The translations under genes were made by a program, and so were the position numbers. This document shows positions 8,280-64,000 of a stretch of DNA of 64,000 nucleotides, piece by piece. The stretch lies in contig NZ_JAEUYX010000003.1 in assembly GCF_016798225.1 (NCBI RefSeq), forward strand, positions 62,001-126,000. Reading direction: 5' to 3'. Source of the stretch: Anaerococcus sp. mt242 (lineage in GTDB: Bacteria > Bacillota > Clostridia > Tissierellales > Peptoniphilaceae). The notes beneath the pieces are model-generated. The model ran no database searches and had not been told where the DNA came from. It was given only the letters and a program-made list of their open reading frames with translations. The stretch's first letter is position 1. Every line of letters begins with the position of its first letter.

Positions 8280-9377
8280 GTGGCTAATTTAAATTTAAAT
8301 AAAATAAAAGAATTTTTAAATAAGGATATATCCTCTAGCAAGATTGATAGCAGGATTATGTCCTTATTTTTAAAACAATTATCTTTACTAATTGGGGCAG
8401 GTGTTCCACTTGATAGGAGTTTAAAGATAATTGAACAACAAAAGCTAGATAAAAAACTCAGCAAAGCTCTCCACCAAATAAATTTAGACTTATCAAAGGG
8501 ACTATCAATAAACGATGCCTTTACTCACAACAAGAAATTTTTTAATCCCATGTTAGTAGCTTTTATAAAAAGTGGAGATCAGAGTGGGCGAATGGCAGAA
8601 GTTCTTGATGAACTATCTACCTACATAAACGAAGAAAGCAAAAATAAAAACATAATCAAACAAGCACTTACATATCCCATTATGCTTTTATTTGTTATGA
8701 TTATCATAATTGTAATCATAATGAATTTTGTTTTGCCAACTTTTGAAGGGATATTCGAATCTTTCGGCAAAGATTTACCAACATCTACAAAAATTTTGTT
8801 GGAAATTTCGAGATTTATTTCTAATTATGGATTTTATATAATAATATTTCTTCTTGCAATTGTATTTAGTATTTTAATTTTAAGAAAAGATAATGAAACT
8901 CAGCTTAAGATAGATAAATTTGGTTTCTTAAAATTACCATTTTTTAAGTACAGAAGATTAAGCTTGGAATATCAACTTACATCCTTACTTTATATTCTAA
9001 AAGCTGGAGATGTCGATATAGTAACTAGTTTAGATATTATAAAAGAATCATTTAAAAATCAATTTGTTAAACAAATCTTCAATGAAATAATAATTGATCT
9101 AAAAAAAGGATTTAGTCTTAGTTCTAGTTTATCTAGTAAAAAAATATTTTCACCTCTATTGATATCAATGATAAAGATTGGTGAAGATAGTGGAGAGATG
9201 AGATCAGCCTTAGAGAAATCAAGTGAATATTTTGCCACAGATTATATTTATAAGCTTCGTCATATTTCATCTCTTGCAGAACCTGTGATGATAATTGTGA
9301 TGAGTATAGTAGTTGCTTTTGTAGTTTTTGCCATAGCATTGCCAATATTTGAATCGGTAAATGGGGTTGGATTTTAG
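8280..9377 (+). CDS. Type IV pilus / type II secretion inner-membrane platform protein (GspF/PilC family)
   Basis: A 365-residue integral membrane platform protein. It contains two T2SSF repeats (about 25-150 and 225-350), each with the LIGAGVPLDRSL / LKAGDVDIVTSL type helix and a GDQSG or GEDSG turn. Membrane helices lie at about 134-158, 178-198 and 336-358. The start is GTG one base after the frr stop with no strong ribosome binding site, so translation is probably coupled. It leads a run of pilin and prepilin-peptidase genes. The hexameric assembly ATPase normally next to this gene is absent. Confidence 0.9.
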   Translation: MANLNLNKIKEFLNKDISSSKIDSRIMSLFLKQLSLLIGAGVPLDRSLKIIEQQKLDKKLSKALHQINLDLSKGLSINDAFTHNKKFFNPMLVAFIKSGDQSGRMAEVLDELSTYINEESKNKNIIKQALTYPIMLLFVMIIIIVIIMNFVLPTFEGIFESFGKDLPTSTKILLEISRFISNYGFYIIIFLLAIVFSILILRKDNETQLKIDKFGFLKLPFFKYRRLSLEYQLTSLLYILKAGDVDIVTSLDIIKESFKNQFVKQIFNEIIIDLKKGFSLSSSLSSKKIFSPLLISMIKIGEDSGEMRSALEKSSEYFATDYIYKLRHISSLAEPVMIIVMSIVVAFVVFAIALPIFESVNGVGF

Positions 9378-9385
9378 GAGTGAAA

Positions 9386-9760
9386 ATGAAAAATAAAAAG
9401 AAAAAAGGATTTACTTTAATTGAATTAGTAATTGTAATAGCAATTATAGGAATTTTGGCTGCAGTAGCCCTTCCAAAATATAATAATTCAAGACTTGCTG
9501 CTGCTGAGGCTGCTCATAAAAGTAATGTGCAAATGTTAAAGTCTGCTGCGCTTGTAAGACAAAATGAGATGAAAGCTGGAGATGAAGACGTTAATTGGCC
9601 AAATAATGAAGACCCAAAAAATTATGTTGAAAAATGGCCAAAATTACCAAATGGTCTTAATTATAAAAACTTAAGACCTGAAAATCCTCAGGGATACACA
9701 GTTATTATAAATAATAACAAGATTGAAATTTATCCTGGAGAAAATGATTATTCAAAGTAA
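9386..9760 (+). CDS. Major-type prepilin (type IV pilin-like)
   Basis: A 124-residue prepilin with a very basic leader (MKNKKKK) and the class III cleavage motif G/FTLIELVIVI. It is followed by a roughly 25-residue hydrophobic helix ending in ALPKY, and then a short globular domain. GTG 9380 is in frame, but AGGAG (9376-9380) is correctly spaced for ATG 9386. Cleavage before Phe by the peptidase encoded next would give a mature pilin of about 116 residues. The canonical Glu5 is present. It is the best candidate for the main subunit. Confidence 0.88.
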   Translation: MKNKKKKGFTLIELVIVIAIIGILAAVALPKYNNSRLAAAEAAHKSNVQMLKSAALVRQNEMKAGDEDVNWPNNEDPKNYVEKWPKLPNGLNYKNLRPENPQGYTVIINNNKIEIYPGENDYSK

Positions 9761-9762
9761 TA

Positions 9763-10467
9763 ATGTGTAGACTATTGTTATTTTTCCTAGGAGCAATCTT
9801 TGGATCATTTGCAAATCTAGTTATAAATCACACAATCAAAGGTGAAAGCATAATAAGCCCTCCCAGCCATTGTGACAATTGTGGCCACAGATTACAAGCC
9901 TGGGATTTAGTTCCTATATTAAGTTTTATATTTTTAAAAGGTAGATGTAGATATTGCAAGAGTAAAATTTCAAGTGATAACTTAATATTAGAATTCATAT
10001 CAGGATTGTTTGCTATTATATTCTTCAATCCATTTGAAATAATTAAATCGGGCTTGATTTTTTTGGTAATATTACTTTCACTTATAATAGCAGTTATAGA
10101 TTTAAAAACTTTTGATATCTATATGAATCAAATTGAGATTTTAGCATTATTAGTCATAATATACAGGTATAATTTCTTAACATTTGATTTAGAGTTTTTT
10201 AAAATCACATTTTTATTTATAATTGCATATGTAATAATATATTTGGCATCAAACAAGGGATTGGGAGATGGTGATATTTATTATTATCTAACGCTATTTT
10301 TAATATTGCCTAATCAAAAAATTATTTATTTTATACTAATATCAATCTGGCTTGGTGCTATTTCAGGATTAGCTATCGCTTACAAAAATAGAACGCTAAA
10401 ATCACAAATACCATTTTGTATTTATATATTTATGTCATTTTTAATTTTAAATTTGCCTGGAGTTTAA
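9763..10467 (+). CDS. Prepilin peptidase (A24, PilD/ComC type)
   Basis: A 234-residue polytopic aspartic protease that cleaves and often N-methylates prepilins. The N-terminal cytoplasmic zinc loop has CDNC and CRYC pairs (about residues 37-40 and 62-65), usually linked to methylase activity. Catalytic aspartates lie in AVIDLKTFDI and in GLGDGD. Helices fill the rest. It starts two bases after the pilin stop with no clear ribosome binding site, so it is likely coupled to the pilin gene. Confidence 0.92.
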   Translation: MCRLLLFFLGAIFGSFANLVINHTIKGESIISPPSHCDNCGHRLQAWDLVPILSFIFLKGRCRYCKSKISSDNLILEFISGLFAIIFFNPFEIIKSGLIFLVILLSLIIAVIDLKTFDIYMNQIEILALLVIIYRYNFLTFDLEFFKITFLFIIAYVIIYLASNKGLGDGDIYYYLTLFLILPNQKIIYFILISIWLGAISGLAIAYKNRTLKSQIPFCIYIFMSFLILNLPGV

Positions 10468-10471
10468 GTAA

Positions 10472-10900
10472 ATGAAAAAGCGTGGGTTTACTTTAATCGA
10501 ATTAATAGTAGTTTTAGCTATAATGTCTGCTATACTAGCCATCGGTTTTTTTCGATTTTCAAGCTTACATAAAATAAAATCTGAAATTGAAGTTCAAACT
10601 TTGATTAACGATATCCAATATGCAAAAACTAAATCACAAACAACGGGTGATACATCCTACATATCTTTTAATAGGACTAATTACAGAATTGATTCGGGAA
10701 TTAATTACAAGAAAAGTCGCAAATTAGAGTATATTGAGATGCAAACTTATAACAATCAGCAAGTAAGTTTTTACTCAACAGGGAGTGTTGGTGGCTCGGA
10801 CACTATTTATTTAAAATATAAGTTTGATCCATTAGACAAAAACAGATATAAGCTAATTATTGCGCCGGTAGGGGGACGAACTAGAATTGAAAAAATATAA
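10472..10900 (+). CDS. Minor pseudopilin (GspH/ComGD-like)
   Basis: A 142-residue protein with prepilin leader MKKRG/FTLIELIVVLA, hydrophobic helix to about residue 28 and a beta-rich C-terminal domain containing an Ser/Gly-rich VGGSDTIYLKY segment, as in GspH/FimT-type minor pilins. Its end overlaps the next gene by 14 bases. Confidence 0.82.
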   Translation: MKKRGFTLIELIVVLAIMSAILAIGFFRFSSLHKIKSEIEVQTLINDIQYAKTKSQTTGDTSYISFNRTNYRIDSGINYKKSRKLEYIEMQTYNNQQVSFYSTGSVGGSDTIYLKYKFDPLDKNRYKLIIAPVGGRTRIEKI

Positions 10901-11237
10901 AGGGGGTTTCACTTTGATTGAAACCATACTAGCATTAGGGATACTTGCTTTAATCGCTACTTTTCTATTACCATCCTTACAAACTCTAATTAATTCTTCT
11001 AATGAATTAAAAGAAGATCCACAAATAATATTTGCTCTTGAAGAGGCCCTAGAAGCTGAGAAATCAAATACAAATCCAAGCTATAATTCAAAAGCAATAT
11101 ATGTAAATGGATATGAAATAACAATTACAAGGTCTATTTATAATAAAGATTTAGATAGAATAATAGTAAAACGAGATAAATATGAGCTTGAACTTTTAGA
11201 GGAAAATTATGAGAAAAAAAGGCTTTACTCTAATTGA
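10887..11237 (+). CDS. Minor pseudopilin (GspI-like)
   Basis: A 116-residue protein starting at TTG 10887, with leader MKKYKG/GFTLIETILALG. The motif has Glu5 and a hydrophobic helix to about residue 30, then a short acidic domain. GspI-type assignment rests on the small size and position between the GspH-like and GspJ-like genes. It overlaps both neighbours. Confidence 0.78.
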   Translation: MKKYKGGFTLIETILALGILALIATFLLPSLQTLINSSNELKEDPQIIFALEEALEAEKSNTNPSYNSKAIYVNGYEITITRSIYNKDLDRIIVKRDKYELELLEENYEKKRLYSN

Positions 11238-11721
11238 ATTACTAACATCACTAGCTATTGCATCTATCTTAATCTTAACTTCATACATGATTTTTGGAAC
11301 GAGCATTAATGCTTCAAAAAAAACTTTCACTAACGAGCTCGAATTCAAATCAACATCGGTTGGATTTACATATATAGAAAATATAATTAGAAACTCTTAT
11401 AAAATAGAAATTACAGAGGATAATGGAGAGAGTAATTGCAAATTTTACATAATTAATAAAGCACAGCAAAATAGTGATCAAGAAATTTCTACATACAGAT
11501 TTTTGACAGATATTAGCAAATCATCTAATGAAAAAACTTTATTTGCTGAAATAACAAATATCTCAAATCAAGGCTTACGAAATACAAAAGTGCCAATATC
11601 AAAATGCGATGACCTTTACTTATATTTCGACGTAGAAAATGAAAGGGTAAAAGTTATCATAAATAAGGACAATCCTAGGCTTAGATATGAAACTTTAATA
11701 AATGTTGGTAAAAGATTATGA
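11209..11721 (+). CDS. Minor pseudopilin (GspJ/ComGF-like)
   Basis: A 170-residue protein with leader MRKKG/FTLIELLTSLA, hydrophobic helix to about residue 28 and a larger beta-rich domain. It overlaps the previous gene by 29 bases and shares an ATGA junction with the next. Order and sizes fit the H-I-J-K series of minor pilins that form a pilus tip. Confidence 0.78.
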   Translation: MRKKGFTLIELLTSLAIASILILTSYMIFGTSINASKKTFTNELEFKSTSVGFTYIENIIRNSYKIEITEDNGESNCKFYIINKAQQNSDQEISTYRFLTDISKSSNEKTLFAEITNISNQGLRNTKVPISKCDDLYLYFDVENERVKVIINKDNPRLRYETLINVGKRL

Positions 11722-12200
11722 AAAAGGGATTTGTATCAATATTGACTCTATTTGTACTTTTAGTTTTATCCCTTACAATTACATTTGTTTATAGGCAAAA
11801 TGAAAATACAAATGAGTACATAAGAGATTTGTATAGTAAAAAACAATCTATTTATTTAGCTGAGTCTGTGATGAATAGATTTTTAGTTGAAAATTATGAT
11901 GAATTAAAGGATATAATCTTAGATGATAATTCTAAGCTTGATAAGAAAAATACAGATAATTATGAGTTAGATAAGTCAAGAAATGTATATTATGAAAATC
12001 AAAGATACTATATTAGAATTTGGCACTACAATAATAATGATGAATCGAAGTTACAAAATGTATATAAAGTAACAGTAGATAATGTAAGAGTAGGAAGTAG
12101 TAAAGCTAATTCTGAAGCTTGGTTTAAGCTAGTAGAAAATAATGATGATTTGGAAAAAGATAGCAAAAGTATTAAAATGATTATTAGACGTACCTATTGA
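11718..12200 (+). CDS. Tip-type minor pilin (PilX/GspK-like)
   Basis: A 160-residue protein with basic MKKG leader directly before a hydrophobic helix (FVSILTLFVLLVLSLTI). It lacks the usual FTLIE motif and has no Glu at position 5, as in GspK/PilX proteins that cap the pilus. The helix is followed by a Gln/Ala/Glu stretch (KKQSIYLAESVMNRF) typical of this class. It is the last gene of the pilus operon. Confidence 0.7.
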   Translation: MKKGFVSILTLFVLLVLSLTITFVYRQNENTNEYIRDLYSKKQSIYLAESVMNRFLVENYDELKDIILDDNSKLDKKNTDNYELDKSRNVYYENQRYYIRIWHYNNNDESKLQNVYKVTVDNVRVGSSKANSEAWFKLVENNDDLEKDSKSIKMIIRRTY

Positions 12201-12256
12201 TTTTAAATTTTAGAGGGTACAGGTATAATGTATGTATAAAAATATAAGGAGATAAA

Positions 12257-13447
12257 ATGAAAATATTAGTAATAAATTGCGGAAGTTCATCACTTAAATA
12301 CCAACTTTTCAACATGGACAATGAAGAAGTAATGGTAAAAGGACTTGTAGAGAGAATTGGAATTGAAGGAAGCCGTTTAGTTCAAAAAAACAACGGAGAT
12401 GAATTTGTAATCGAAGAAGCTATGGAAAATCACACACAAGCAGTATCACATGTATTTGATGCACTTGTTGATAGCGAAAATGGTGTAATTAATAGCCTTG
12501 ATGAAATTGATGCTGTAGGACATAGATTTGTTCACGGTGGAGAGAAAATGACAAAATCTGCCCTTATCACAGATGAGGTTAAAGATGCTATTAACGAAGC
12601 AGCTAAATTTGCTCCACTTCACAATCCTGCAAACTTAATGGGACTTAAAGCTTGTGAAGAATTACTACCAAATGTACCTAATGTAGCAGTATTTGATACA
12701 GCTTTCCATCAAACAATGCCTGCAAAAACTTATCTTTACGGTATTGACTATAAATACTATGAAGAAGATGCTATTAGAAAATATGGTTTCCACGGAACAA
12801 GCCACAATTATATTACAAATAGAGCAGCTGATCTTCTAGGAAAATCAGTTGAAGAAACAAACATCATTTCAGCTCACTTAGGAAACGGATCATCAATTAC
12901 AGCCGTTAAAGAAGGTAAATCATTTGATACATCAATGGGTCTTACTCCACTTGAAGGACTAGTAATGGGAACAAGATCAGGAGATTTAGATCCAGCAGTA
13001 GTAACATACATTGAACAAAAAGATGGAGTTTCTGCTGAAGATATGAGTAACATCTTAAACAAAGAATCAGGTGTACTTGGAGTATCAGGTGTAAGCTCAG
13101 ACTTTAGAGATCTTGAAGATGCAGCTAAGAATGGAAACGAAAGAGCTCAATATGCCCTTGATATGTTTACTACAAGAACAAAAAGATATATCGCAGGATA
13201 TATGGCAGAAATTGAAAAAGTAGATGCTATTGTATTTACAGGTGGTATCGGTGAAAACTCAATCGAAATGAGAGAAGAAATCCTAAAAGGATTTGAACAA
13301 TTTGGTATCAAAATCGATCCAGAAGCAAACAATATCCGTGGCGGCGAACACGTAATTTCTACAGAAGATTCTAAAGTAAAAGTTATGGTAATTGCTACAA
13401 ACGAAGAGCTAATGATTGCAAGGGATACACAAGATTTAGTAAAATAA
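12257..13447 (+). CDS. ackA: Acetate kinase
   Basis: Interconverts acetyl phosphate and acetate with ATP formation, the main energy-yielding step in acetogenic fermenters. The 396-residue sequence shows the ASKHA signatures VINCGSSSLKYQLF at the N-terminus, GHRFVHGG, FDTAFHQTMP, HLGNGSS and FTGGIGENS. AAGGAG precedes ATG 12257. A TATAAT at 12224-12229 suggests its own promoter after the pilus operon, though the nearest TTGATT is 21 bases upstream of it. No pta lies nearby. Codon use is smoother and more A-ending than in the neighbours, consistent with high expression. Confidence 0.98.
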   Translation: MKILVINCGSSSLKYQLFNMDNEEVMVKGLVERIGIEGSRLVQKNNGDEFVIEEAMENHTQAVSHVFDALVDSENGVINSLDEIDAVGHRFVHGGEKMTKSALITDEVKDAINEAAKFAPLHNPANLMGLKACEELLPNVPNVAVFDTAFHQTMPAKTYLYGIDYKYYEEDAIRKYGFHGTSHNYITNRAADLLGKSVEETNIISAHLGNGSSITAVKEGKSFDTSMGLTPLEGLVMGTRSGDLDPAVVTYIEQKDGVSAEDMSNILNKESGVLGVSGVSSDFRDLEDAAKNGNERAQYALDMFTTRTKRYIAGYMAEIEKVDAIVFTGGIGENSIEMREEILKGFEQFGIKIDPEANNIRGGEHVISTEDSKVKVMVIATNEELMIARDTQDLVK

Positions 13448-13452
13448 AAACC

Positions 13453-13481
13453 TTGACATATGGGATATCTCAATATATAAT
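13453..13481 (+). promoter_or_regulatory. Sigma-A promoter for rpmF-plsX operon
   Basis: TTGACA (13453-13458) and TATAAT (13476-13481) with a 17-base spacer, directly after ackA and 39 bases before the rpmF start. Confidence 0.88.
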
Positions 13482-13519
13482 ATAAAAGATTGCTAAAACT
13501 GATAAGAGGAGGTGTAACG

Positions 13520-13699
13520 ATGGCAGTACCAAAAAGAAGAACATCTAAAACTAGAAAAAATAAAAGAAGAGCCTCAGCTTATACTTTGAACAGATCAAAC
13601 TATGTTGAGTGTCCAAATTGCCACGAGCCAAAACTTCAACACAGAGTTTGCCCAAACTGTGGAGAATATAAAGGCGAAGCAATAATTGATGTAGAATAA
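13520..13699 (+). CDS. rpmF: 50S ribosomal protein L32
   Basis: A 59-residue basic L32 starting [17 protein letters not shown], with two zinc-binding CPNC knuckles (the four-Cys form). GAGGAGGTG ends 5 bases before ATG 13520. An upstream in-frame ATG at 13490 would add ten non-conserved residues and has no binding site, so it is rejected. The pairing with plsX-acpP is the common bacterial fatty-acid/ribosome linkage. Confidence 0.97.
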
Positions 13700-13726
13700 G
13701 ATAGTGTTTAAGCACTATCTTTTTTT
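13698..13726 (+). terminator. Intrinsic terminator or attenuator between rpmF and plsX
   Basis: Nine-bp stem AAGATAGTG/CACTATCTT with a 6-base loop and a T run. The stem overlaps the rpmF stop codon. Because plsX follows 22 bases later without an obvious new promoter, partial read-through is likely needed. Confidence 0.8.
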
Positions 13727-13747
13727 ATACAAAAAATGAGGAAAATT

Positions 13748-14731
13748 ATGAGAATATTAATAGATACTTATGGAGCAGATGCTGGTGCAAAGCCAATTAT
13801 CGATGGTACAGTAAAAGCACTTGAAAAACGTGATTTTATACCTGTTTTTGTAGGAAATGATAGGGAAATAAAACTTTTAGTTCACGATAGAATAAAAAAT
13901 TACGAAATAATTCCTACAAATGAATTTATTTCAAATGATGAAGACCCAGTAAGAGCCATTAGGAAGAAAAAAGATGCTTCCATAGTTTTAGCTTATGAAA
14001 AGAGTAAAGAAGAAGGATATGATGGAGTAATTTCTGCAGGGTCTACTGGAGCCTTGCTTGCTGGCGGATTGTTTATTGCAGGAAGAATCCCGGGCATAAA
14101 AAGAGCTTGTCTTGCTGCAAACATCCCATCTTTAAATGAAGAAATAACTCTATTGATGGATACTGGTGCAAATATGGATTGCAAGCCAGAATTTTTATAT
14201 GAGTTTGCCCTAATGGGGAGGGTATATCTTGAAAATGTAATGCACATAACTAATCCTAAAATAGGGCTTTTAAATGTTGGCGTTGAAGAACATAAGGGAA
14301 ATGCTCTTACAAAAGAGGCTTACAAACTTCTTAAAGAATCTAATATGAATTTCACAGGAAATATTGAAGCCCGTGATTTATTAACTGGAAAAGTAAATGT
14401 AATTGTGGCAGATGGATTTGATGGAAATATTGCAATAAAAACAACAGAAGGCGTTTTAAAAAGTTTTGGATCTGAACTTAAAAAATTAATATATTCATCT
14501 CCTAAAAATAAAATTGCAGGTGCAATACTTAAAAATGATATAAAATCTCTGGCAAACAAATTTAGTCCAGATGAAGTTGGAGGAGCGCCACTTCTTGGGG
14601 TAAAATCTTATGTATACAAGGCCCATGGCAGCACAAATGACATAGCATTTTCAAATGCAATCCTAGGCCTAATAGAATATATAGAAATGAATGTTATAGA
14701 AAAAATCGAAGGAGAATTAAATGGTAATTGA
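13748..14731 (+). CDS. plsX: Phosphate acyltransferase PlsX
   Basis: Converts acyl-ACP to acyl-phosphate for membrane phospholipid synthesis. The 327-residue sequence has VISAGSTGALLAGG, LMDTGAN, ADGFDGNIAIKT and GGAPLLGVK landmarks. The usual N-terminal DAMGGD motif is altered to IDTYGAD. ATG 13748 is chosen over in-frame ATG 13736 because TGAGGA lies at ribosome-binding distance from the later one and the fold starts there. acpP overlaps its last codons. Confidence 0.93.
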   Translation: MRILIDTYGADAGAKPIIDGTVKALEKRDFIPVFVGNDREIKLLVHDRIKNYEIIPTNEFISNDEDPVRAIRKKKDASIVLAYEKSKEEGYDGVISAGSTGALLAGGLFIAGRIPGIKRACLAANIPSLNEEITLLMDTGANMDCKPEFLYEFALMGRVYLENVMHITNPKIGLLNVGVEEHKGNALTKEAYKLLKESNMNFTGNIEARDLLTGKVNVIVADGFDGNIAIKTTEGVLKSFGSELKKLIYSSPKNKIAGAILKNDIKSLANKFSPDEVGGAPLLGVKSYVYKAHGSTNDIAFSNAILGLIEYIEMNVIEKIEGELNGN

Positions 14732-41975: not shown

Positions 41976-42883
41976 ATGAATAAAAAAACAAATCTGATAT
42001 TATCTAAAAAACAATTCCAAATTCAACGAGTAGGAATCTATGCACGAGTCAGCACGACAGATAAAGAACAGTTAAATAGTTTAGTTGCCCAAATATCTGC
42101 TTTAACTAGGCTTGTATATCATTATTACAATTGGAAACTTGTAGATATTTATATTGATATTGCATCAGAAAAAACTAAATCAAGTAGGAAAGGATTCTCA
42201 AGAATGGTTGAAGACATAAAGAAATAAGATATTAATATAATCGTTACAAAGAGCGTCAGTAGATTTGGTAGAGATACAGTAGATGCTTTAGAAGCGTTAA
42301 AAGTAATAAAGCAAGCCAGTGCAAGAATTATCTTTGAACAAGAAAACCTAGATAGCCAAGAAGATGATACAGATATGATCATATCCATTATGGAATCATT
42401 AGCACAATCAGAAAATGAACAGCGAAGTGAAATATAAAATGGGGTCTAAAACAAAGAGCTGCACAAGGCACATCAAAACTTTATAATCGAAAGTGCTATG
42501 GCTATGATCATGATGAAAATGGAGAGCTGATTATAAATTTTCAACAAGCAAAAATAGTCAAGAAAATATTTAATTGGTACTTAGATGGGAAAAGTGTCAT
42601 AGGCATTGTCAAAGAATTTGAAAAAGAAAAGATTAAATCTGCAACAGGGAAAAACAAATGGCCAAAAAGAAGTATTGAAACTATGTTAGAAAATGAAAAG
42701 TATACAGGTTCTGTAAAACTATTAGATTCAGTAAATAAAGAAAATTATTATCTTCTAAAAGATAATCACGAAGCAATTATTACCGAGGAAGTATTTAATA
42801 AAGTTCAAGAAGAAAAATCAAGTAGGAGTAATCTTGATGAGGAAAATAATAGAAAGAGTAGAAAATATAGTTCGAAAAATTGA
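41976..42883 (+). pseudogene. Large serine recombinase, broken (integrase of a decayed element)
   Basis: The first piece holds the resolvase catalytic start GIYARVSTTDKEQLNSL with the nucleophile Ser. An in-frame TAA at 42225-42227 interrupts it, after which the same frame continues (KSVSRFGRDTVDALEAL, IMESLAQSENEQRSE). Near 42430 one base is missing. The -1 frame from 42437 then encodes KWGLKQRAAQGTSKLYNRK and the recombinase domain (WYLDGKSVIGIVKEFE, MLENEKYTGSVKLL), ending at 42883. About 300 codons remain of a protein that is usually 450-550. The zinc ribbon and C-terminal coiled coil are lost. It lies 236 bases after the rlmD stop, where an integrase of this class would sit. Confidence 0.9.
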
Positions 42884-46114: not shown

Positions 46115-46150
46115 CATGTGGAGACGGTAGTCTTACTTGAGAAAAAATAA
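46115..46150 (+). repeat. Third copy of the rlmD 3' end (right junction of the island)
   Basis: Reads HVETVVLLEKK then stop. It shares CATGTGGAGAC exactly with the true rlmD end at 41704 and encodes the same C-terminal motif. Unlike the middle copy, it is followed by a terminator similar to the one behind rlmD, as expected if this is the original chromosomal gene end displaced by insertion. Confidence 0.72.
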
Positions 46151-46160
46151 ATACTTCATA

Positions 46161-46202
46161 TGACTTTTAGGATAAAGAATATGTTCTAGAAGTCTTTTTT
46201 AG
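46161..46202 (+). terminator. Intrinsic terminator after third rlmD-end copy
   Basis: GACTTTTAGGA paired with TTCTAGAAGTC (two G-U pairs), then a T run. Its left arm resembles that of the rlmD terminator at 41768-41810. Confidence 0.75.
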
Positions 46203-46537
46203 TATCCTTGCTTTTCTTAAAAAAGAATTTGATTTATTGTAATAATAAAAATATTGGAATTATCATTACAAAAGATAGTTATTTATGAAGAGGAACTTAT
46301 GACGATTTTACATTTGAGAATAAGATTAACATAGAAAAAATTTAGTTTTACAAAATTTATACACATAAGTTAGCAGTAATTTGTTTTACTTGAGCTTATA
46401 ATTAAATATAGGATTAAATATAGATAAATCAAAAAGTTTAATATAGAAATAACAATAATATAGATAGTGGAATTGAATTAAACTTAATTTTAATATTGGG
46501 ATTGAAGACATAAATAGCATTAGAAAAGGAGTGTAGG

Positions 46538-48085
46538 TTGAAAAAACAAAATGTAATTTTAATTATGCATTTATTACTGCAAGTTATTTTATTTATGCCT
46601 ATAGCACCATTTATAAAATATCAGCAAACATTAGATGTGGGAATTTTTATAGTATTTTTACTAAGCATTATTAATTTTATAGCCTATATCGTATGTGTGT
46701 TAAATTCTGAAAAAAATTATATACTGATTCATAGCCTAGTAGTTGAATTATTTATTATTTTCAATTTTTTAGAAGATTTAATATTAAGAGACTTATTAAT
46801 AGGAAAACATATTGAACTATTAATCTATAGCTTGATATTATTTGCAAGTTTTAATCTTATAAATCCATCGAATAAAAATAAGTTCATGCCATTAATTACA
46901 ACAATAGGAATTATTATATCGATAATAATGATGGAATTTAATACTTCTCTAGCATATTCAATATTTAATTATGTTGTGATTATTTTATTATTGACTCCAA
47001 TAATATTATATTCAAAGGATAAAAACATTCGAAAATATGAAAGTAAAACAATTATAATATTGCAAACTCTGTTTACAATAACTTTTTTCATATACAAGAA
47101 GTATGAAGGCGAGGGGCTTGTTTCTATAAGTGAGTATCAATTATTTACATGTATCTTCATTGAATTTGTATTGTTATATAGGATTAGTAAGACAAAAATT
47201 AAAAGCGGTTTAGTATTTTTTTCCCGTTCTTTGAGAAAAATATTTCCTGAATTTATCATTTTATTTATAATGTTGTATTTAACATCAATATCTTTTCCAG
47301 GAGTTACATTATTTTCTTTAAGCTTTTTTATGTTTTTAGTAGAATTTAGATTGTACGAAAAATATAAAAAATCTAACTTGATAACTTTTGAGGAAATGTT
47401 GGATAACTATTATGTTGAAAAACATAGAAATTTAGAAATTGAAAAATTAAATACTTTAAGGATACAGACATTTTTACATGATGACATTCTACAGATTATA
47501 ATAGCAATACGAAGGTGGATAGAAGATAATCTTTCAGGATCTGGCAAAAAATACATTATAGAAAACCTGGATAAGTTAAATGATCTGATTCGCCATGAAA
47601 TAAATTCATTTAATCCAATGTTAAATGATTATAATTCTCTATATGACGCATATAACAGACTTATAGTAGATTTAGAAAACATGTATTTAAACAATAATAT
47701 GCTTATAGAATTTGAGTGTGATAGAAATATAGATTTGCCCAGTCCGTACGCCGAGTTAATTTATAAATGTATTAATGAATTATTAATAAATGCATTAAAA
47801 CATTCAAAAGGTTATAGTACTGACATTATTCTCAAAACGGTAAACGATAAAATCAATCTTAAAATAACAAATTATGGGGATTATTTAGAAGATGAAGAAA
47901 AAATAGTAGAGGGAAATATAGGATTAAATATATTAAGGTTTAACTTAAGCGAATATGGTGGAAAATTTCATTTTTATTTTTCTAAAAATCAAAATGAATT
48001 GGATGAATCATTTGTAGAATTTAAAATAGAAGTTCCAGTAGATAGGAGTGTAGTAAATGAAAATCTTATTAATAGAAGATCATAA
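46538..48085 (+). CDS. Sensor histidine kinase (HisKA_3/NarL-partner type)
   Basis: A 515-residue kinase starting at TTG 46538 behind AAAGGAG. About eight hydrophobic helices fill residues 5-285, with no extracellular domain. The phospho-acceptor is His314 in FLHDDILQ. The ATPase domain has CINELLINALKHSKG (N box) and GNIGLNILRF (G box). Architecture resembles ComP/lantibiotic-sensing kinases that detect peptides in the membrane. It overlaps its response regulator by 29 bases. Confidence 0.9.
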   Translation: MKKQNVILIMHLLLQVILFMPIAPFIKYQQTLDVGIFIVFLLSIINFIAYIVCVLNSEKNYILIHSLVVELFIIFNFLEDLILRDLLIGKHIELLIYSLILFASFNLINPSNKNKFMPLITTIGIIISIIMMEFNTSLAYSIFNYVVIILLLTPIILYSKDKNIRKYESKTIIILQTLFTITFFIYKKYEGEGLVSISEYQLFTCIFIEFVLLYRISKTKIKSGLVFFSRSLRKIFPEFIILFIMLYLTSISFPGVTLFSLSFFMFLVEFRLYEKYKKSNLITFEEMLDNYYVEKHRNLEIEKLNTLRIQTFLHDDILQIIIAIRRWIEDNLSGSGKKYIIENLDKLNDLIRHEINSFNPMLNDYNSLYDAYNRLIVDLENMYLNNNMLIEFECDRNIDLPSPYAELIYKCINELLINALKHSKGYSTDIILKTVNDKINLKITNYGDYLEDEEKIVEGNIGLNILRFNLSEYGGKFHFYFSKNQNELDESFVEFKIEVPVDRSVVNENLINRRS

Positions 48086-48662
48086 AATGGTCGCAACTTC
48101 TTTAAAAATGAGCTTAGAGACGGACGAATCTATTTCTGTAGATATAGTAAATAATGTTACAGACCTTAGCATAAATGAATCCATCCTTAACTATGATTTG
48201 TTACTAGTAGATATTAATTTGACAGGAATAGATGGAACAATAAATGGTTTAGATCTGACAGAAGAACTGATTAATATATATGAAGACTTAAAAATTGTAA
48301 TTTTAACTGCGTATAAATTAGACTTCTACATTAAAAGAGCAAAAAGAATTGGTTGTAAAGGATTTATTTCCAAAGAAGAAGAGACAACTAAACTAATAGA
48401 GGATATAAAATCTATAGTTCTGGAAGATAAAGCTATATTTTCAGAAGAAAATTATATGGTAGAGCCATTAACAAAAAGTGAAATCCATATAGTTAAACTT
48501 TATTCAAACGGACTATCAAGGAAAGAGTTAGCTAAAGAACTAAATACAAATGTAAGAAGCCTAGCAGTATCATTATCAAGAATTTATCAAAAGTTAGGTG
48601 TTAGAAATTATCAAGAATTGATAGATAAAGTACGTGAATTAGGGTACGTAGATTCATTTTAA
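48057..48662 (+). CDS. LuxR/NarL-type response regulator
   Basis: A 201-residue regulator with receiver domain (1-120): acidic pocket LLIEDHKM, phospho-acceptor Asp52 (LLVDINLTG), switch Thr in ILTAYK and Lys in FISKEE. The C-terminal LuxR helix-turn-helix (about 138-195) has GLSRKELAKELNT. It likely controls the adjacent ABC transporter genes, since transcription resumes after the terminator just downstream. Confidence 0.92.
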   Translation: MKILLIEDHKMVATSLKMSLETDESISVDIVNNVTDLSINESILNYDLLLVDINLTGIDGTINGLDLTEELINIYEDLKIVILTAYKLDFYIKRAKRIGCKGFISKEEETTKLIEDIKSIVLEDKAIFSEENYMVEPLTKSEIHIVKLYSNGLSRKELAKELNTNVRSLAVSLSRIYQKLGVRNYQELIDKVRELGYVDSF

Positions 48663-48666
48663 AGAC

Positions 48667-48702
48667 AAGCATTAGAATTTTATAATTCTAATGCTTTTTT
48701 TA
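48667..48702 (+). terminator. Intrinsic terminator of the two-component operon
   Basis: Thirteen-bp perfect stem AAGCATTAGAATT/AATTCTAATGCTT, 4-base loop, seven T. Confidence 0.93.
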
Positions 48703-48841
48703 TTCACAAAAGTTAGCTGAAGTGAAATTTTATTTATATTAGAATGTTAAAAGAATGAGTCATGTAATATATATTTTATGTTCATGAGTATAGAAGTAAC
48801 TTATTTTTAGTATTAGAAATTAATAAAAAGGAGAGATAGAA

Positions 48842-49243
48842 GTGAAAAAATCAAAATTTAAAATTGCTATAATAATACTTATCTTAGCATTTGTTGTATT
48901 ATTATTTAATGCTAGAAAAGATAAAAATTGGGTTGCAGATTATTCGGAGAATGAGAACATTAAAACATATAGTCTATTGATAACTAATAATAAAAATGAA
49001 GATATTAATAAACAGTTTAAATCTCTAGCTTTAAATGAAAAAATGTATTTGAGGATACTTAATATTGATAAGACTAATGAAGAAAAAAGTAATATAGATA
49101 TTGATAATAATAAAATACCTTATATCATCATGGTAGATAATGGGCGTCCTAAAAATGTAATATCTTTAGAAAGATATAATGAGTTAGAAAATAATTTAAA
49201 AGAATATTTAGATGAAGAATTAGATAAAGATTATTTTGACTAA
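48842..49243 (+). CDS. Small membrane-anchored protein before ABC transporter
   Basis: A 133-residue protein starting at GTG 48842 with GGAGAG upstream. One N-terminal membrane helix (about 6-25) lacks a lipobox. The remaining domain is very Asn/Asp/Lys/Glu-rich with a YIIMVDNGRP strand-turn that recalls a cysteine-less thioredoxin-like fold. I do not recognise the family. It is first in the regulated transporter operon, where immunity or accessory proteins often sit. ATGAGT occurs twice upstream (48755, 48784), a possible pair of regulator contacts. Confidence 0.65.
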   Translation: MKKSKFKIAIIILILAFVVLLFNARKDKNWVADYSENENIKTYSLLITNNKNEDINKQFKSLALNEKMYLRILNIDKTNEEKSNIDIDNNKIPYIIMVDNGRPKNVISLERYNELENNLKEYLDEELDKDYFD

Positions 49244-49286
49244 CTTATTATTCTAAGATTCATATACAAAAAGGAGAAGAATGTAA

Positions 49287-50171
49287 ATGAATTACCTACA
49301 AATAACACATTTAACAAAATCATATGGGAAAACTATAATTTTAGATAATGTAAATTTGTCAATAGATAGAGGAGAAATAGTTGGGTTACTTGGTAGAAAT
49401 GGAGCAGGTAAATCTACTTTAATGAAATGTATAGTTGGATTAGTAAGGAAAGATTCTGGAACGATAAAATTTAATGGTGTAGTTTCTAATAAATTCGGAT
49501 ATTTGATTGAATATCCAGCTTTTTATCCAAACTTATCCGCATATGATAATTTGAAAATTTTTGCGTCAATATTAAATGTAAGTGATAAAAGAATTAAAGA
49601 TATCATAGATATAGTGGGTCTTACAAAGCATGGAGATAAAATATTCGCAAATTATTCTTTAGGAATGAAACAAAGGCTTGGCTTAGGGCGAGTTTTGTTA
49701 ACTGATCCGGATTTGTTGATATTAGATGAACCTTTTAATGGATTAGATCCTTCAGGAATAATAGAAATTAGAGAATTATTAAAAGAATTAGCAAAATCAG
49801 GAAAATCTATCTTAATATCAAGTCATAATTTACCAGAAATCGAAAGAATTGTGAATCAAATCAATCTACTTCATAACACAAAAATAGTTAAGAGTGTGAA
49901 TATAAACGAAATTCATAAAGAAAAGAGATTGGTAATTAAATCGAAAGATTCCGAAAAAATTATGGGAATTCTTAAAACACATAAGTTAAATCAAAACTAT
50001 CTAGTAGATGAAAATGCTATAAAAATAGATGGTAATGATATAAATTCTGAAATGATTATCCAATTAATATATTCTAATGGAGGTAGAATTTCAGAAATAT
50101 ATTATGAGAAAACTACGTTGGAAGATTATTTTGAGGAAATAGCGGGTGATATATATGAAGAAATTAAATAG
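49287..50171 (+). CDS. ABC transporter ATPase (lantibiotic-immunity / BcrA type)
   Basis: A 294-residue ATPase with Walker A GRNGAGKST, Q-loop replaced region YLIEYPAFYPNL, signature SLGMKQRLGLG, Walker B LLILDEPFNG and H-loop SSHNL. The C-terminal 80 residues form the extension seen in LanF/BcrA ATPases. The permease gene overlaps its end. It is placed with a two-component system, as in bacteriocin or peptide-antibiotic self-protection and resistance modules. Confidence 0.92.
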   Translation: MNYLQITHLTKSYGKTIILDNVNLSIDRGEIVGLLGRNGAGKSTLMKCIVGLVRKDSGTIKFNGVVSNKFGYLIEYPAFYPNLSAYDNLKIFASILNVSDKRIKDIIDIVGLTKHGDKIFANYSLGMKQRLGLGRVLLTDPDLLILDEPFNGLDPSGIIEIRELLKELAKSGKSILISSHNLPEIERIVNQINLLHNTKIVKSVNINEIHKEKRLVIKSKDSEKIMGILKTHKLNQNYLVDENAIKIDGNDINSEMIIQLIYSNGGRISEIYYEKTTLEDYFEEIAGDIYEEIK

Positions 50172-59443: not shown

Positions 59444-59858
59444 AAAAAGTATGTAACTTTTTATTTTTCAATTGAATTTTCTACAAATGAGAAAATTATC
59501 CTTTATAAAGATTTTCTAGCACCTATAACAACAGGTGCTATTTTATTGTTTAAATTTAGGATATGAGCTGACGATAATTTCATGAATATGGTTAAGTTAT
59601 AAGTAGTTTTTATTTTATATTATTCTTTATTTACTAGCAATTCATAAAGTTACTGACTGAAACTTGACTATTATATCTTATAATAAAATAAAGGTGATAA
59701 AAATAATAGTGGATGATTTTAATTAGAGTGAAGTTTTAAGAGTTATAAGAATTGCAAATATAATATTGATAAGTTATAAATGCTATAATATTTGTATTAA
59801 TATTATTGAGTATAAATTAACAAATCCTTGTACAATTTAAATGAAAGGTGGTGGAAAT
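59444..59858. other. Intergenic stretch
   Basis: About 415 AT-rich bases with one terminator (59517-59548). I see no further gene or clear promoter before the AraC-type gene. Confidence 0.5.
59517..59548 (+). terminator. Intrinsic terminator
   Basis: Eight-bp stem TAGCACCT/AGGTGCTA, 8-base loop, then TTTTATTG. Confidence 0.75.
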
Positions 59859-60707
59859 ATGGATATAATGAAATCTTTTAACTCAGCAATAGACTATATT
59901 GAAGATAACTTAACTGAAGAACTTGATGAGAAAGAGATAACACGGATAACAGGATATTCATTTCCAATGTTTTCAAGAATATTTTCAATCATATCAGGAT
60001 GTTCATTATCTGAATATATAAGGTTAAGAAAGATGACAAATGCAGCAATTGAATTAAAAAATTCAGATAAAAGGATTATAGATATAGCAATAAAATATGG
60101 CTATAATTCTCAAGATTCTTTTGCCTTAGCTTTTAAAAGTTTTCATGAGTTAACTCCAGGACAAGTAAAAAGAGGAGAAAAATATCAATATTTCCCAAGG
60201 ATCTACTTTTCAATTTCAGTTCAAGGAGGAAATCAAATGGATATTAAGATTGAGAAAAAGAAAGCATTTAAAGTAGCTGGTATTAAATCGGATGTAACTA
60301 AAAGCTCAAATTTTCCAAAAGTTTGGGATAGACTGGTTGAAAAAGTACCAAGAGAAAAATTTGAAGAGTTTGGTAGTGGTCAAATCTTTGGCGTAGGATA
60401 TGACTATCTAATGGATGAAGAAGATTCATTTACATATTTAGCTGGTTTTGATTTGACGGATGAGGTAAAAGCTAAGGAATTAGGATTAGATACACTCAGT
60501 ATTCCTGAAAAAGAGTATGCTATTGTAAGCTTAGAAGGTCCTATACCAAAATGCATTCACGAAGGATGGAAGTATATTATTTCATATTTCTTCCCAAAAG
60601 AAGGATATAGACATGATGAAAGTCCCGATTTTGAAGTATATGGAGATGGAGACCCTAATTCAAAAGATTATCAAATGGAATTATGGGTTCCAATAGTAAA
60701 AGAATAA
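59859..60707 (+). CDS. AraC-family regulator with GyrI-like effector-binding domain
   Basis: A 282-residue protein. The N-terminal AraC double helix-turn-helix (about 1-108) includes GYSFPMFSRIFS, IDIAIKYGYNSQDSFALAFK and LTPGQVKRG. The C-terminal GyrI-like (AraC_E_bind) domain (about 125-282) is the type that binds small hydrophobic drugs. The upstream in-frame ATG 59841 is part of the AAGGTGGTGG ribosome binding region, so ATG 59859 is preferred. Likely a multidrug-responsive activator; no target transporter is adjacent. Confidence 0.9.
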   Translation: MDIMKSFNSAIDYIEDNLTEELDEKEITRITGYSFPMFSRIFSIISGCSLSEYIRLRKMTNAAIELKNSDKRIIDIAIKYGYNSQDSFALAFKSFHELTPGQVKRGEKYQYFPRIYFSISVQGGNQMDIKIEKKKAFKVAGIKSDVTKSSNFPKVWDRLVEKVPREKFEEFGSGQIFGVGYDYLMDEEDSFTYLAGFDLTDEVKAKELGLDTLSIPEKEYAIVSLEGPIPKCIHEGWKYIISYFFPKEGYRHDESPDFEVYGDGDPNSKDYQMELWVPIVKE

Positions 60708-60726
60708 GATAGCATTAACAGATTTG

Positions 60727-60758
60727 AAAGCATCTATCAAAATGATAGGTGCTTTTTT
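60727..60758 (+). terminator. Intrinsic terminator before the phage-chaperone-like gene
   Basis: Thirteen-bp stem AAAGCATCTATCA/TGATAGGTGCTTT with two G-U-type pairs, loop AAA, six T. A sister hairpin with the same core precedes the second chaperone relic at 63242. Confidence 0.88.
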
Positions 60759-60782
60759 GATGCCTAAAATTAAGGAGTAATC

Positions 60783-61156
60783 TTGACATATGATATTAGA
60801 TTTTTGGAAAACATAGTCTATGTAACGGCAAAACATGGAGATAAATCTGTGCCAGATAGTCCAGAAGAAAGGTTGGATAATTTCTCAACTTTTTCAATTT
60901 ATCAAATTCTACCTCAGCTAATTGAGTTATGGGGACTTAATATAAAATCGGAAGAAGTTCCTAAAAAAAAGTAAGACCAACAGAAAGACCAATGACTACA
61001 CCCTTGTTTTTACTAAGGGCAGTGGAACTTGGTCTTTCTGTTTCTGATTTATCTCTACTAACAATTGGACTTATAAATGATATGTTTACAGAAAAGAATA
61101 ACGATGATTATAAATATAAGGAAGTGGCTACACAAGAAGACTTTGATAAGTTTTAA
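60783..61156 (+). CDS. Phage tail-assembly-chaperone-like protein, short and -1 frameshifted long forms
   Basis: The short form (60783-60974, TTG start, AAGGAG five bases upstream) is a 63-residue acidic-aromatic protein: ENIVYVTAKHGDKSVPDSPE and IYQILPQLIELWG. The second part (60971-61156) continues in the -1 frame: MTTPLFLLRAVELGLSVSDL then INDMF, and ATQEDFDKF. Slippage at 60965-60971 would fuse both into about 124 residues. Siphophage tail chaperones (G and GT type) are made this way, and I recall similar sequences in Firmicutes phages, but the family call is from memory. No other tail gene is near, so this is an isolated piece of a phage. Confidence 0.65.
60965..61040 (+). promoter_or_regulatory. 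Programmed -1 ribosomal frameshift signal
   Basis: Slippery heptamer A-AAA-AAG (60965-60971) in the zero frame of the short protein, with the zero-frame stop TAA immediately after. After a 9-base spacer a perfect 12-bp stem follows: CAGAAAGACCAA (60981-60992) with TTGGTCTTTCTG (61029-61040). Its 36-base loop contains a nested CCCTT/AAGGG hairpin (61001-61005, 61015-61019). Confidence 0.8.
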
Positions 61157-61162
61157 TAACAA

Positions 61163-61202
61163 TGCAAATATATTTGCAATATAAAAAGAAATATATTATA
61201 AT
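61163..61202 (+). promoter_or_regulatory. XRE promoter with operator dyad over the -35 box
   Basis: TTGCAA (61174-61179) and TATAAT (61197-61202), spacer 17. The perfect 16-base palindrome TGCAAATATATTTGCA (61163-61178) covers most of the -35 box, a typical site for an autoregulating repressor such as the XRE protein encoded 43 bases downstream. Confidence 0.7.
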
Positions 61203-61244: not shown

Positions 61245-61478
61245 TTGGAAAATAGTATAAGACAAATTAGGAAAGAAAAAGAATTAACCCAAGAACAATT
61301 AGCTGATGGGCTTAGTGTAACAAGACAATTTATTAGTCTTTTGGAACGTGGAGAGGCTCAAGCCACAATTTCAGTAGGAATAGAAATTGCAAACAAACTA
61401 GACACATGTGTTTATACATTATTTGGTTTTGATAAGTTTGAGTGTGAGCAGTGTCATGAAGGTGCAGGAGGAAATTAA
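61245..61478 (+). CDS. Small XRE-family transcriptional regulator
   Basis: A 77-residue HTH_3 protein from TTG 61245, with IRQIRKEKELTQEQLADG and TRQFISLLERGEA (recognition helix), followed by DTCVYTLFGFDKFECEQCHE. The C-terminal CEQC pair could bind metal or be redox-active. A TAGGTAGG motif lies about 14 bases upstream. The palindrome at 61163 overlapping its promoter suggests autoregulation. Confidence 0.85.
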   Translation: MENSIRQIRKEKELTQEQLADGLSVTRQFISLLERGEAQATISVGIEIANKLDTCVYTLFGFDKFECEQCHEGAGGN

Positions 61479-61634: not shown

Positions 61635-62744
61635 ATGAAGAGGTTGTTAACATTAGTGATAGCATTAGTAATGATGCTACCAGTTTTATCGTCGAGGTCT
61701 ATTGCAGCTAATGAAGGTGAGCAACCGGATGTAAAAGAATTATATTTAGTTTCCGATAAGGTTAATGAGAATCATATTACATATGCTAATAGCGAAAAAG
61801 AGAACGTGCTAATGGCTTTAAAAGATGTAATATCTCTAGATGGATTTGTTTTGGAAGACATGATTTCATTTGGGAAACCATTTAATTTAAACGAATCAAC
61901 ATATATACCAATCATAATAGATAATAAAATAGTAGCATTGATGGCTGTATCGGATTTCGAAGGAGAATTATGATGGACTCTGTCAAAGGATTTTTCTGAT
62001 GGCTTAAATCAAATTTCTGAACTTACAAGTCTCGAATCACCTGCTTTTTTATATACAGTGAAGGGAAATGTCTTTGCAACTATTTCGGGTAAAGAAATAC
62101 AGTTGACTTTTTATCCTGAACTGGAAGTATCTAGTGATTCAAAATTATATAATGAGACTGAAATTCCTTCAAAAAATGCAGTAAATATAATGGAAATCGA
62201 AAACTTAGAGGATAGCTATAGACTAGATAATATGGTTTATGAACCAAGGTCTTCGAGTAGTAAATATATTGATTTAGATCTAGCAGAAACTCAAGGGGAT
62301 CAGTCTTGGTGTTCGGCTTTTGCTGGTGCTCAAATTTTAAGACAAAGAGGAAAAGGAAAGATTTATGCAATCAATATAATGAGATATTTCTATCCAAATG
62401 TTAGTTATGCCGATTTAAAGAAAAAATCTATTTCACATAAGCAACTAATTAAATATGCTAATAACAAAAAGTCATATCCATCAGAAAGTACAGGAACTTT
62501 AAGTCTAGATTCAGTAAAGAAGCAAATTAATTCTAACAAATCAATATATCTCAATTGTTATGGGACAGGGACATACAAAAAAGCAAATCATGCCCTTGTC
62601 TTAAGAGGTTACAACACAAGAAGCAACACGTATTCTATATGGAATCCTTGGAATGCTAGTTATGTCAGTATGTCCATATCAAGTAAGAGTATATCTGTAA
62701 ATGGTGGCAAGTTTGTATGGAGTTCGACAATTTATGGATGGTAG
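61635..62744 (+). pseudogene. Staphopain-like (C47) secreted cysteine protease interrupted by one UGA
   Basis: A signal peptide (about 1-24, MKRLLTLVIALVMMLPVLSS), propeptide and papain-like domain lie in one reading frame. The domain has GDQSWC (oxyanion Gln223, catalytic Cys226), NHALVLRGYN (His319) and WNPWN (Asn337), then FVWSSTIYGW, very close to the end of staphopains. Codon 113 (61971-61973) is TGA; the frame is open on both sides, and all catalytic residues are intact. The part after the stop has no obvious new start. Either a recent nonsense mutation or read-through. Start ATG 61635 has AAGAAGGA upstream. Confidence 0.82.
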
Positions 62745-63096
62745 ATATAAAAAAATCTTTGCTTCTATATTATTACTAATTACTGTAATAGGAGGAATAT
62801 ATATAGCAAAGAATACAAGTAAAGATGATATTGATGCTAATTATAAACCTATGGTAAAAGTAGAAGACAAAATTTATTATTGGTCCAAAGATCTAGAGGA
62901 TATTAGTCTAAAAGATTTTACCTTGATAGGAGAAGTAAAAAAATCATATAATTCTGGATCCAAGTCAATAGATGAAGGAAGTGAAAATTACTCAAGTAAT
63001 GTATTTCCTACAGGGTCGAAACTTTATCTTTATGATAAAACTAGTATTATTGTTGAGACCAATAGTGGAGTCAGCCTATGTGTTGAAGGAAAATAA
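62734..63096 (+). CDS. Membrane-anchored small protein paired with the C47 protease
   Basis: A 120-residue protein from ATG 62734, overlapping the protease end by 11 bases. One N-terminal helix (about 6-22) and an extracytoplasmic beta-rich domain with NVFPTGSKLYLYDKTSIIVE. The in-frame ATG 62701 would need a longer overlap and adds residues before the helix. Staphopain genes are followed by a small inhibitor gene (staphostatin); position matches, but staphostatins are cytoplasmic, so an inhibitor role is only a guess. Confidence 0.65.
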   Translation: MDGRYKKIFASILLLITVIGGIYIAKNTSKDDIDANYKPMVKVEDKIYYWSKDLEDISLKDFTLIGEVKKSYNSGSKSIDEGSENYSSNVFPTGSKLYLYDKTSIIVETNSGVSLCVEGK

Positions 63097-63241
63097 CTTT
63101 TTTCTATGGGACTACAAACAACAAAATTTTAAAATTTGATACCTAATAAAAATTAAAAAATCAAGATTGTTTATATAGAATAGCGTGAACACAGAAGCCA
63201 TGTTTTGTGGAATTAGTAGTGAAGTTAGTAACCAACAAATG

Positions 63242-63273
63242 AAGGCATCTAGAAAAAATCTAGGTGCCTTTTT
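63242..63273 (+). terminator. Intrinsic terminator, sister of that at 60727
   Basis: Twelve-bp stem AAGGCATCTAGA/TCTAGGTGCCTT, 5-base loop, five T. Shares the GCATCTA/TAGGTGC core with 60727-60758. Confidence 0.88.
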
Positions 63274-63302
63274 CATGTCTACTTTTAGGATAAATGACAA
63301 TA

Positions 63303-63341
63303 AAAGAAGTAGCTACGCAAGAAGACTTTGATAAATTTTAA
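63303..63341 (+). pseudogene. Relic of a second tail-chaperone-like gene (C-terminus only)
   Basis: Reads KEVATQEDFDKF then stop, identical in protein to the end of the gene at 60783-61156 but with silent base changes. It follows a sister terminator, so both the terminator and the gene end were copied or inherited, with the middle deleted. Confidence 0.7.
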
Positions 63342-63928: not shown

Positions 63929-64000
63929 ATGAAAAATTTTATTTTTAAAATAGCGATTATATTATCTAAGGTTTTAAGATATATTTCATATTTGGGAGCA
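63929..64000 (+). CDS. Start of a short peptide gene, cut by the window end (possible AgrD-like)
   Basis: ATG 63929 behind GAGGAAG gives 24 visible codons: MKNFIFKIAIILSKVLRYIS then YLGA. A basic amphipathic N-terminal helix of this kind, ending near a Gly before the peptide core, is typical of cyclic-lactone autoinducer precursors (AgrD). The core and acidic tail would lie outside the window, so this cannot be confirmed; it could equally be the signal anchor of a longer protein. Confidence 0.35.
   Translation, partial: MKNFIFKIAIILSKVLRYISYLGA

Follow-up and report, generated by a model that had tools for sequence, protein, structure and literature searches.

A 64,000-nt stretch of the Anaerococcus sp. 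mt242 genome (contig NZ_JAEUYX010000003.1, positions 62,001 to 126,000) was analysed and is called the window here. Near its right end, truncated copies of a phage tail-chaperone gene lie between groups of accessory genes. The truncated copies are referred to as scars, the accessory groups as cargos 1 to 3, and the interval between the chaperone and tape-measure genes of phages as the slot. The features are as follows:

59768..59779, + strand: weak candidate for a third chaperone 3′ end, very short, 5′ of cargo 1 (~9 of 12 nt aligned with phage chaperone ends)
59841..60707, + strand: cargo 1, AraC-family regulator with a GyrI-like domain (Pfam; slot cargo in loci L063, L068 and L145)
60724..60777, + strand: terminator-like hairpin and ribosome-binding site, located 5′ of the tape-measure gene in phages (matches L063 and L068)
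60778..61156, + strand: tail-chaperone scar, from chaperone nt 159 to the stop (old part to ~60826, phage-like from ~60851)
60783..60974, + strand: 0-frame ORF with TTG start (ORF reading and PHROG match)
60965..60971, + strand: slippery heptamer A_AAA_AAG
60971..61156, + strand: −1-frame half, phrog_3033 (open frame and PHROG match)
60980..61041, + strand: stem-loop 3′ of the heptamer (fold and stem comparison)
61245..61478, + strand: cargo 2, XRE-type regulator (Pfam; prophages L069 and L148 have a relative in this position)
61635..62744, + strand: cargo 2, C47 peptidase-like gene interrupted by a stop at 61971-61973 (Pfam; uninterrupted relative in genome G006)
62701..63096, + strand: cargo 2, 131-aa ORF without a Pfam match (ORF list)
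63236..63298, + strand: terminator-like end of cargo 2 (hairpin and alignment)
63299..63341, + strand: second chaperone scar, last 43 nt (repeat and phage alignment)
63435..63905, + strand: cargo 3, lipoprotein-like gene (in the slot of the G077 prophage)
63929..64000, + strand: cargo 3, start of a DUF2975-type gene, which runs past the window to 64450 and is followed by an XRE gene

Frameshift signal in the truncated gene

A preliminary description of this DNA had reported a complete −1 frameshift cassette. Direct reading bore this out: the heptamer, the TAA directly after it (60972-60974), the spacer and the stem with its nested hairpin are all present, in the right order and at the coordinates listed above. 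The stem has 12 bp and a 9-nt spacer, or an 8-nt spacer if a 13th pair is counted. Its arms (60980-60992 and 61029-61041) enclose the nested hairpin, as read directly. The stretch 60972-61046 folds at −31.5 kcal/mol, compared with −13.66 ± 2.77 for dinucleotide shuffles (z −6.44, with 0 of 200 shuffles as good).

The claim that the downstream part is open only in the −1 frame stood as far as the open frame is concerned, which runs to 61156, but this part also has its own ATG at 60992. Upstream, the sequence 5′ of the TTG is the stretch that carries the ribosome-binding site of the tape-measure gene in phages. Without a 2-nt deletion, which is also found in the scars of genomes G012 and G016, the TTG would not lie in the phage frame. 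The gene had further been called isolated. No tail gene accompanies the window copy, but a second copy of its final 43 nt is located at 63299-63341. A tape-measure query against the genome's own assembly gave nothing at E up to 10, in a search without a positive control of its own.

Identity and truncation of the chaperone piece

A homology search, which the preliminary description had proposed for the halves, gave PHROG matches for both. The N half matched positions 66-123 of 133 in phrog_709 (E 7.2e-14), and the C half matched phrog_3033 over its full length (1-59 of 59, E 6e-23). The PHROG label of both families is unknown function. Because the phrog_709 match covers only these positions, the N half is truncated. 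The phage match of the window copy begins at chaperone nt 159, and thus the first 52 codons are missing. An intact relative, L063, has 118 + 61 codons.

Assignment to the tail chaperones was made through the fold of this relative. A Foldseek search of BFVD with a model of the intact L063 N half (pLDDT 79.1) gave three matches at E up to 0.001, each to a protein named tail assembly chaperone. The same model had no match at E up to 0.001 in a PDB fold search, and Pfam (one match below cut-off), NCBIfam and PDB sequence searches gave nothing usable for naming the chaperone. The window copy carries the putative −1 frameshift signal, as judged from sequence. It has neither a complete N-terminal half nor a place between major tail and tape-measure genes, where the gene does lie in the intact loci L063 and L214 and in the Terrisporobacter phage TPDSL_ph1, whose record has culture supernatant as its source.

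Intact relatives in phages

Among 50,697 phage records, 35 matched the query, with at least 80% of its length covered in every case. Loci encoding relatives numbered 67 in IMG/VR and 59 in one-genome-per-species contigs, the latter mostly from Peptoniphilaceae and Ruminococcus by title; these counts are not all independent, with some phages present in both collections (e.g. L089, which is the same as L171). On one side of the intact copies lies the major tail gene (phrog_88), on the other the tape-measure gene, which is assigned to several tape-measure phrogs.

The two frames stand in a −1 relation in 101 of 103 intact loci. Among the close ones, A_AAA_AAG TAA was found in 49 of 51, while L045 and L059 have one A fewer. 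The proposed origin from a tail chaperone of long-tailed phages, whose −1 frameshift is conserved in relatives, was upheld; the pair is the one located before the tape-measure gene in siphophages of Gram-positive bacteria. The stem is kept across 17 sequences (92.6% of cells paired), with weak covariation (2 pairs changed on both sides). The frameshift signal of the window matches that of the intact phages and is identical over ~95 nt.

A cargo slot between chaperone and tape-measure gene

The slot was surveyed in 104 loci with an intact chaperone, and the tape-measure start was located in 94 of them. The gap measured 12-68 nt in 26 loci and 417-3198 nt in 68, with none in between. After removal of near-identical copies, 66 loci remained, 20 of them empty and 46 loaded. 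Slot ORFs of at least 60 aa formed 45 clusters, some of which are surely spurious; by eye, the clusters include toxin-antitoxin-like pairs, regulators and lipoproteins. In the empty slots of close phages (L047, L054), the chaperone stop runs into the ribosome-binding site of the tape-measure gene. Several loaded slots have a terminator-like hairpin 5′ of this site. In the window, terminator-like hairpins stand at the ends of cargos 1 and 2. As with morons, the slot cargo has a fixed place and is absent from some relatives. Cargos 1 and 3 of the window were found in the slot, cargo 2 by its XRE part only.

Some phage slots contain repeats of the chaperone end themselves. The slot of L171 (Ruminococcus flavefaciens; L089 is the same) contains a further chaperone 3′ end as well as one that is joined to a tape-measure start of 57 nt. 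In L090, cargo ORFs are separated by a chaperone repeat of 37 nt. Among the slots searched, these 3 loci, representing 2 phages (L171/L089 and L090), were the only ones flagged for internal repeats.

Stacked cargo in the window

At the seam 60777/60778, the AraC-terminator stretch is fused to the chaperone interior. On the other side, DNA homology to phage L069 is continuous through the chaperone stop into the XRE gene. The label of the DUF2975-type gene is based on a weak partial Pfam match (E 0.012) and an annotated relative on the plasmid pAPRE01. Of five proteins submitted to PADLOC, the XRE protein alone was matched, by HTH-type models. Protein searches of viral_contigs gave 14 pattern matches for the C47 part of cargo 2 and 11 for the cargo 3 lipoprotein, none of which was confirmed.

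Several other features were noted in and around the stack. A perfect 16-nt palindrome seen by eye at 61163-61178, after the chaperone stop and before the XRE gene, may be an operator. An N-terminal fragment of a serine recombinase (41976-42227; Resolvase, E 4.3e-9) lies at the left border of the variable island, soon after a gene ending at 41739. In G012 (L109), the blocks of the island occur in another order, 59760-69497 first and then 46118-49579, as if modules had been shuffled.

Scars and lipoprotein loci in other genomes

The cargo 3 lipoprotein had matches at E up to 0.001 in 30 of 130 genomes of the host family. Scars were tallied at the 23 lipoprotein loci with E below 1e-40, the window's own included; the seven weak loci L207-L213 and three entries without loci were left out. 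At identities of 84% or more, the lipoprotein gene is preceded by a chaperone 3′ end in all 19 loci; this end is truncated in 18 and intact in one, the G077 prophage, where the lipoprotein module lies between the full chaperone and the tape-measure gene. L203, at 67% identity, also follows a chaperone 3′ end, and the more distant loci L204-L206 have no scar. The scars start at chaperone nt 159, 177, 287, 307, 314, 425/426, 476 or 496, and a joint between the major tail gene and the chaperone is common to many of them.

One copy is located on the conjugative plasmid pAPRE01 of Anaerococcus prevotii, and one in Varibaculum cambriense (L159), which we take to lie outside the host family. Copies in G006 and G007, aligned over 4774 columns, share 99.5% identity. 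Together, these three observations indicate that the module moves horizontally.

The seam between the AraC terminator and the chaperone was found in the window and in G012, and its right part also in G016. In both relatives, the scar passes straight to the lipoprotein, with no XRE unit between. Two strings spanning this seam had 0 exact matches in viral_contigs; as no phage with the seam was found, it may have formed in a chromosome. The right seam (63298/63299), at which the cargo 2 terminator meets the chaperone 3′ end, is also present in G006 L224. In this locus, part of the XRE gene and the C47-ORF-terminator unit lead up to the same chaperone 3′ end, and similarity to the window does not extend past the chaperone stop.

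Two neighbourhoods were inspected by eye. G008 (L119, ~9100-14000) has what resembles a decayed prophage, with a terminase-like fragment and a chaperone piece, beside the same housekeeping block and before the same two-component/ABC block. In G016 (L110, 107-1135), a reverse transcriptase, apparently of group II intron type, lies directly 5′ of the scar.

Decay of the signal and mosaic structure of the window scar

In addition to the window scar, there are 16 truncated scars that include the region of the heptamer. The full A8G-TAA run is kept in the window scar and in none of these others (0/16); the string AAAAAAG is still present in 11 of the 16. In L187-L189, the run is two shorter and both halves share one frame. 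This literally matches the preliminary description's own counter-case, relatives with both halves in one frame without a signal, but these frames carry stops elsewhere. A short hypothetical protein is annotated at the scar of pAPRE01. G012 and G016 share a stop in the N half, which the window does not have.

We compared 30 sites at which G012 and G016 share a state that differs from the phage consensus. Up to 60826, the window followed G012 and G016 at 17 of 17 sites; beyond it, 12 of 13 sites had the phage state. No permutation was as extreme (0/20000), and 261 of 100000 were when clustered sites were collapsed to 17 events. The window scar is therefore a mosaic, whose first ~50 nt match the old scars of the two relatives and whose remainder matches phages, with the switch located between 60826 and 60851. 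The later part is 95.4% identical to the best phage, compared with 90.1% to G012 and 87.0% to G016.

Over their first 55 nt, the three related scars differ from each other at 0-1 positions, and over the rest at 3-11 per 55 nt in all pairs. Since the pair G012-G016 shows this pattern as well, recombination in the window lineage alone does not explain it.

The signal looks intact because phage DNA probably overwrote the scar recently. Most likely, it was renewed by the recombination that brought in cargo 2. The preliminary description had suggested that the recoding signal outlived its phage; this is probably not the reason for its integrity, as the part bearing the signal looks newly supplied by phage DNA.

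Discussion

We interpret 60783-61156 as a recombination scar between stacked phage cargos rather than as a working gene, with a probability of about 0.82. A recoding function of the window scar is unlikely.

Ordinary decay of a prophage in place is an improbable alternative. A single prophage would have carried all the cargo, the chaperone pieces would be deletion remnants, and G012 and G016 would have lost the XRE unit between the 43-nt repeats. Deletion joints of this kind do exist, as the major-tail/chaperone joint common to many scars shows, and the XRE unit is indeed flanked by direct repeats. However, decay needs a second step to account for the switch of state within one scar, from the decayed G012/G016 type to a phage-like later part.

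The suggestion that the gene was kept for another use, as a truncated chaperone translated with frameshifting for a host function, found no support, and its likelihood is very small. It would fit the two open frames, the ~95 nt shared with intact phages and the ribosome-binding site before the TTG. Against it stand the 52 missing codons of the N half, the loss of the full run in all 16 comparable scars and the stop shared by the two nearest relatives, while a recent phage origin explains the intact part. We rejected this reading on the truncation and on the decay of the run in comparable scars. Insertion of cargo units by an integrase, with the chaperone 3′ end serving as its attachment site, can hardly be the explanation either: the units do abut the chaperone stop and a recombinase fragment lies at 41976-42227, but the scars begin at many different positions, unlike a fixed core, and no integrase was seen by eye inside the units.

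What the sequences show is the homology, the truncation, the slot, the seams and the mosaic; the order of events and the enzymes behind the recombination scar, as well as its absence of function, are our inference. In the parent phages, the slot for accessory 'moron' cargo is flanked by the tail chaperone, with its −1 frameshift, and the tape-measure gene. The process may have started from different cargos carried by a pair of related phages, or by a phage and the remnant of a prophage. A junction between the end of one cargo and the 3′ part of the other's chaperone would stack both cargos, with a truncated chaperone between them. The stack in the window consists of AraC, a scar (379 nt), the unit of XRE, C47 peptidase-like gene and ORF, a second scar (43 nt), and finally lipoprotein, DUF2975 and XRE. 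Being direct repeats, the scars provide homology at which more exchanges can occur.

Most likely, recombination between the incoming chaperone ends and the resident scar brought the XRE-C47 unit into a G012-like locus, although G012 and G016 may instead have lost the unit by deletion. Its entry would have overwritten most of the resident scar, and the frameshift signal would have been renewed in the process. Since the right seam is present in G006 too, both exchanges may have been homologous. We had also considered that this seam was made in the window lineage by one-sided illegitimate recombination, which was dropped because G006 L224 has the same seam.

More tentatively, and at clearly less than even odds, the chaperone 3′ end may be a general, integrase-free cassette seam. 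Each exchange would leave a direct repeat that is the next landing site, so that cargo would accumulate stepwise in phages, conjugative plasmids and chromosomes of the Peptoniphilaceae and beyond, and the scars would record the order of capture.

Frameshift pairs of −1 type before the tape-measure gene are described for Streptococcus and Bacillus phages (PMC3952083, PMC6316719). The intact relatives resemble lambda gpG/gpGT, S. thermophilus phage TP-J34 orf41/orf42 and SPP1 17.5/17.5* in having −1 frames between major tail and tape-measure genes and a slippery heptamer. In contrast to gpG/gpGT-type pairs, the window copy is truncated, does not lie between tail genes and is probably non-functional.

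HK97 gp15 is a phage moron located before the tape-measure gene. The P2/P4 hotspots described in PMC9122126 likewise have variable accessory genes in a fixed slot, and the same paper proposes that defence islands are built up as cargo from mobile elements accumulates. Unlike in phage morons and P2/P4 hotspots, the cargos here are stacked outside a phage, and their seams keep pieces of the phage anchor gene.

The T6SS immunity-gene arrays of V. cholerae, for which PMC5361080 proposes an origin by homology-facilitated illegitimate recombination, are similar in their stacked modules, homologous anchor and displaced 3′ ends. They differ in that the anchor here is a phage tail gene, and the units occur in phages, a conjugative plasmid and chromosomes. 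In the literature on tail-gene morons, truncated chaperones, Anaerococcus/Peptoniphilus prophages and cassette arrays, as represented by partial texts including few subscription papers, no account of chaperone scars was found.

At the window locus, the seams between units are preserved and readable, each being a truncated copy of one phage gene. With such seams in phages, a conjugative plasmid and chromosomes, the order of cargo stacking and its dependence on homology become testable. The scar is a clue to how bacteria collect phage cargo. It also calls for caution: when a bacterial chromosome contains a perfect recoding signal, a selected function does not necessarily follow.
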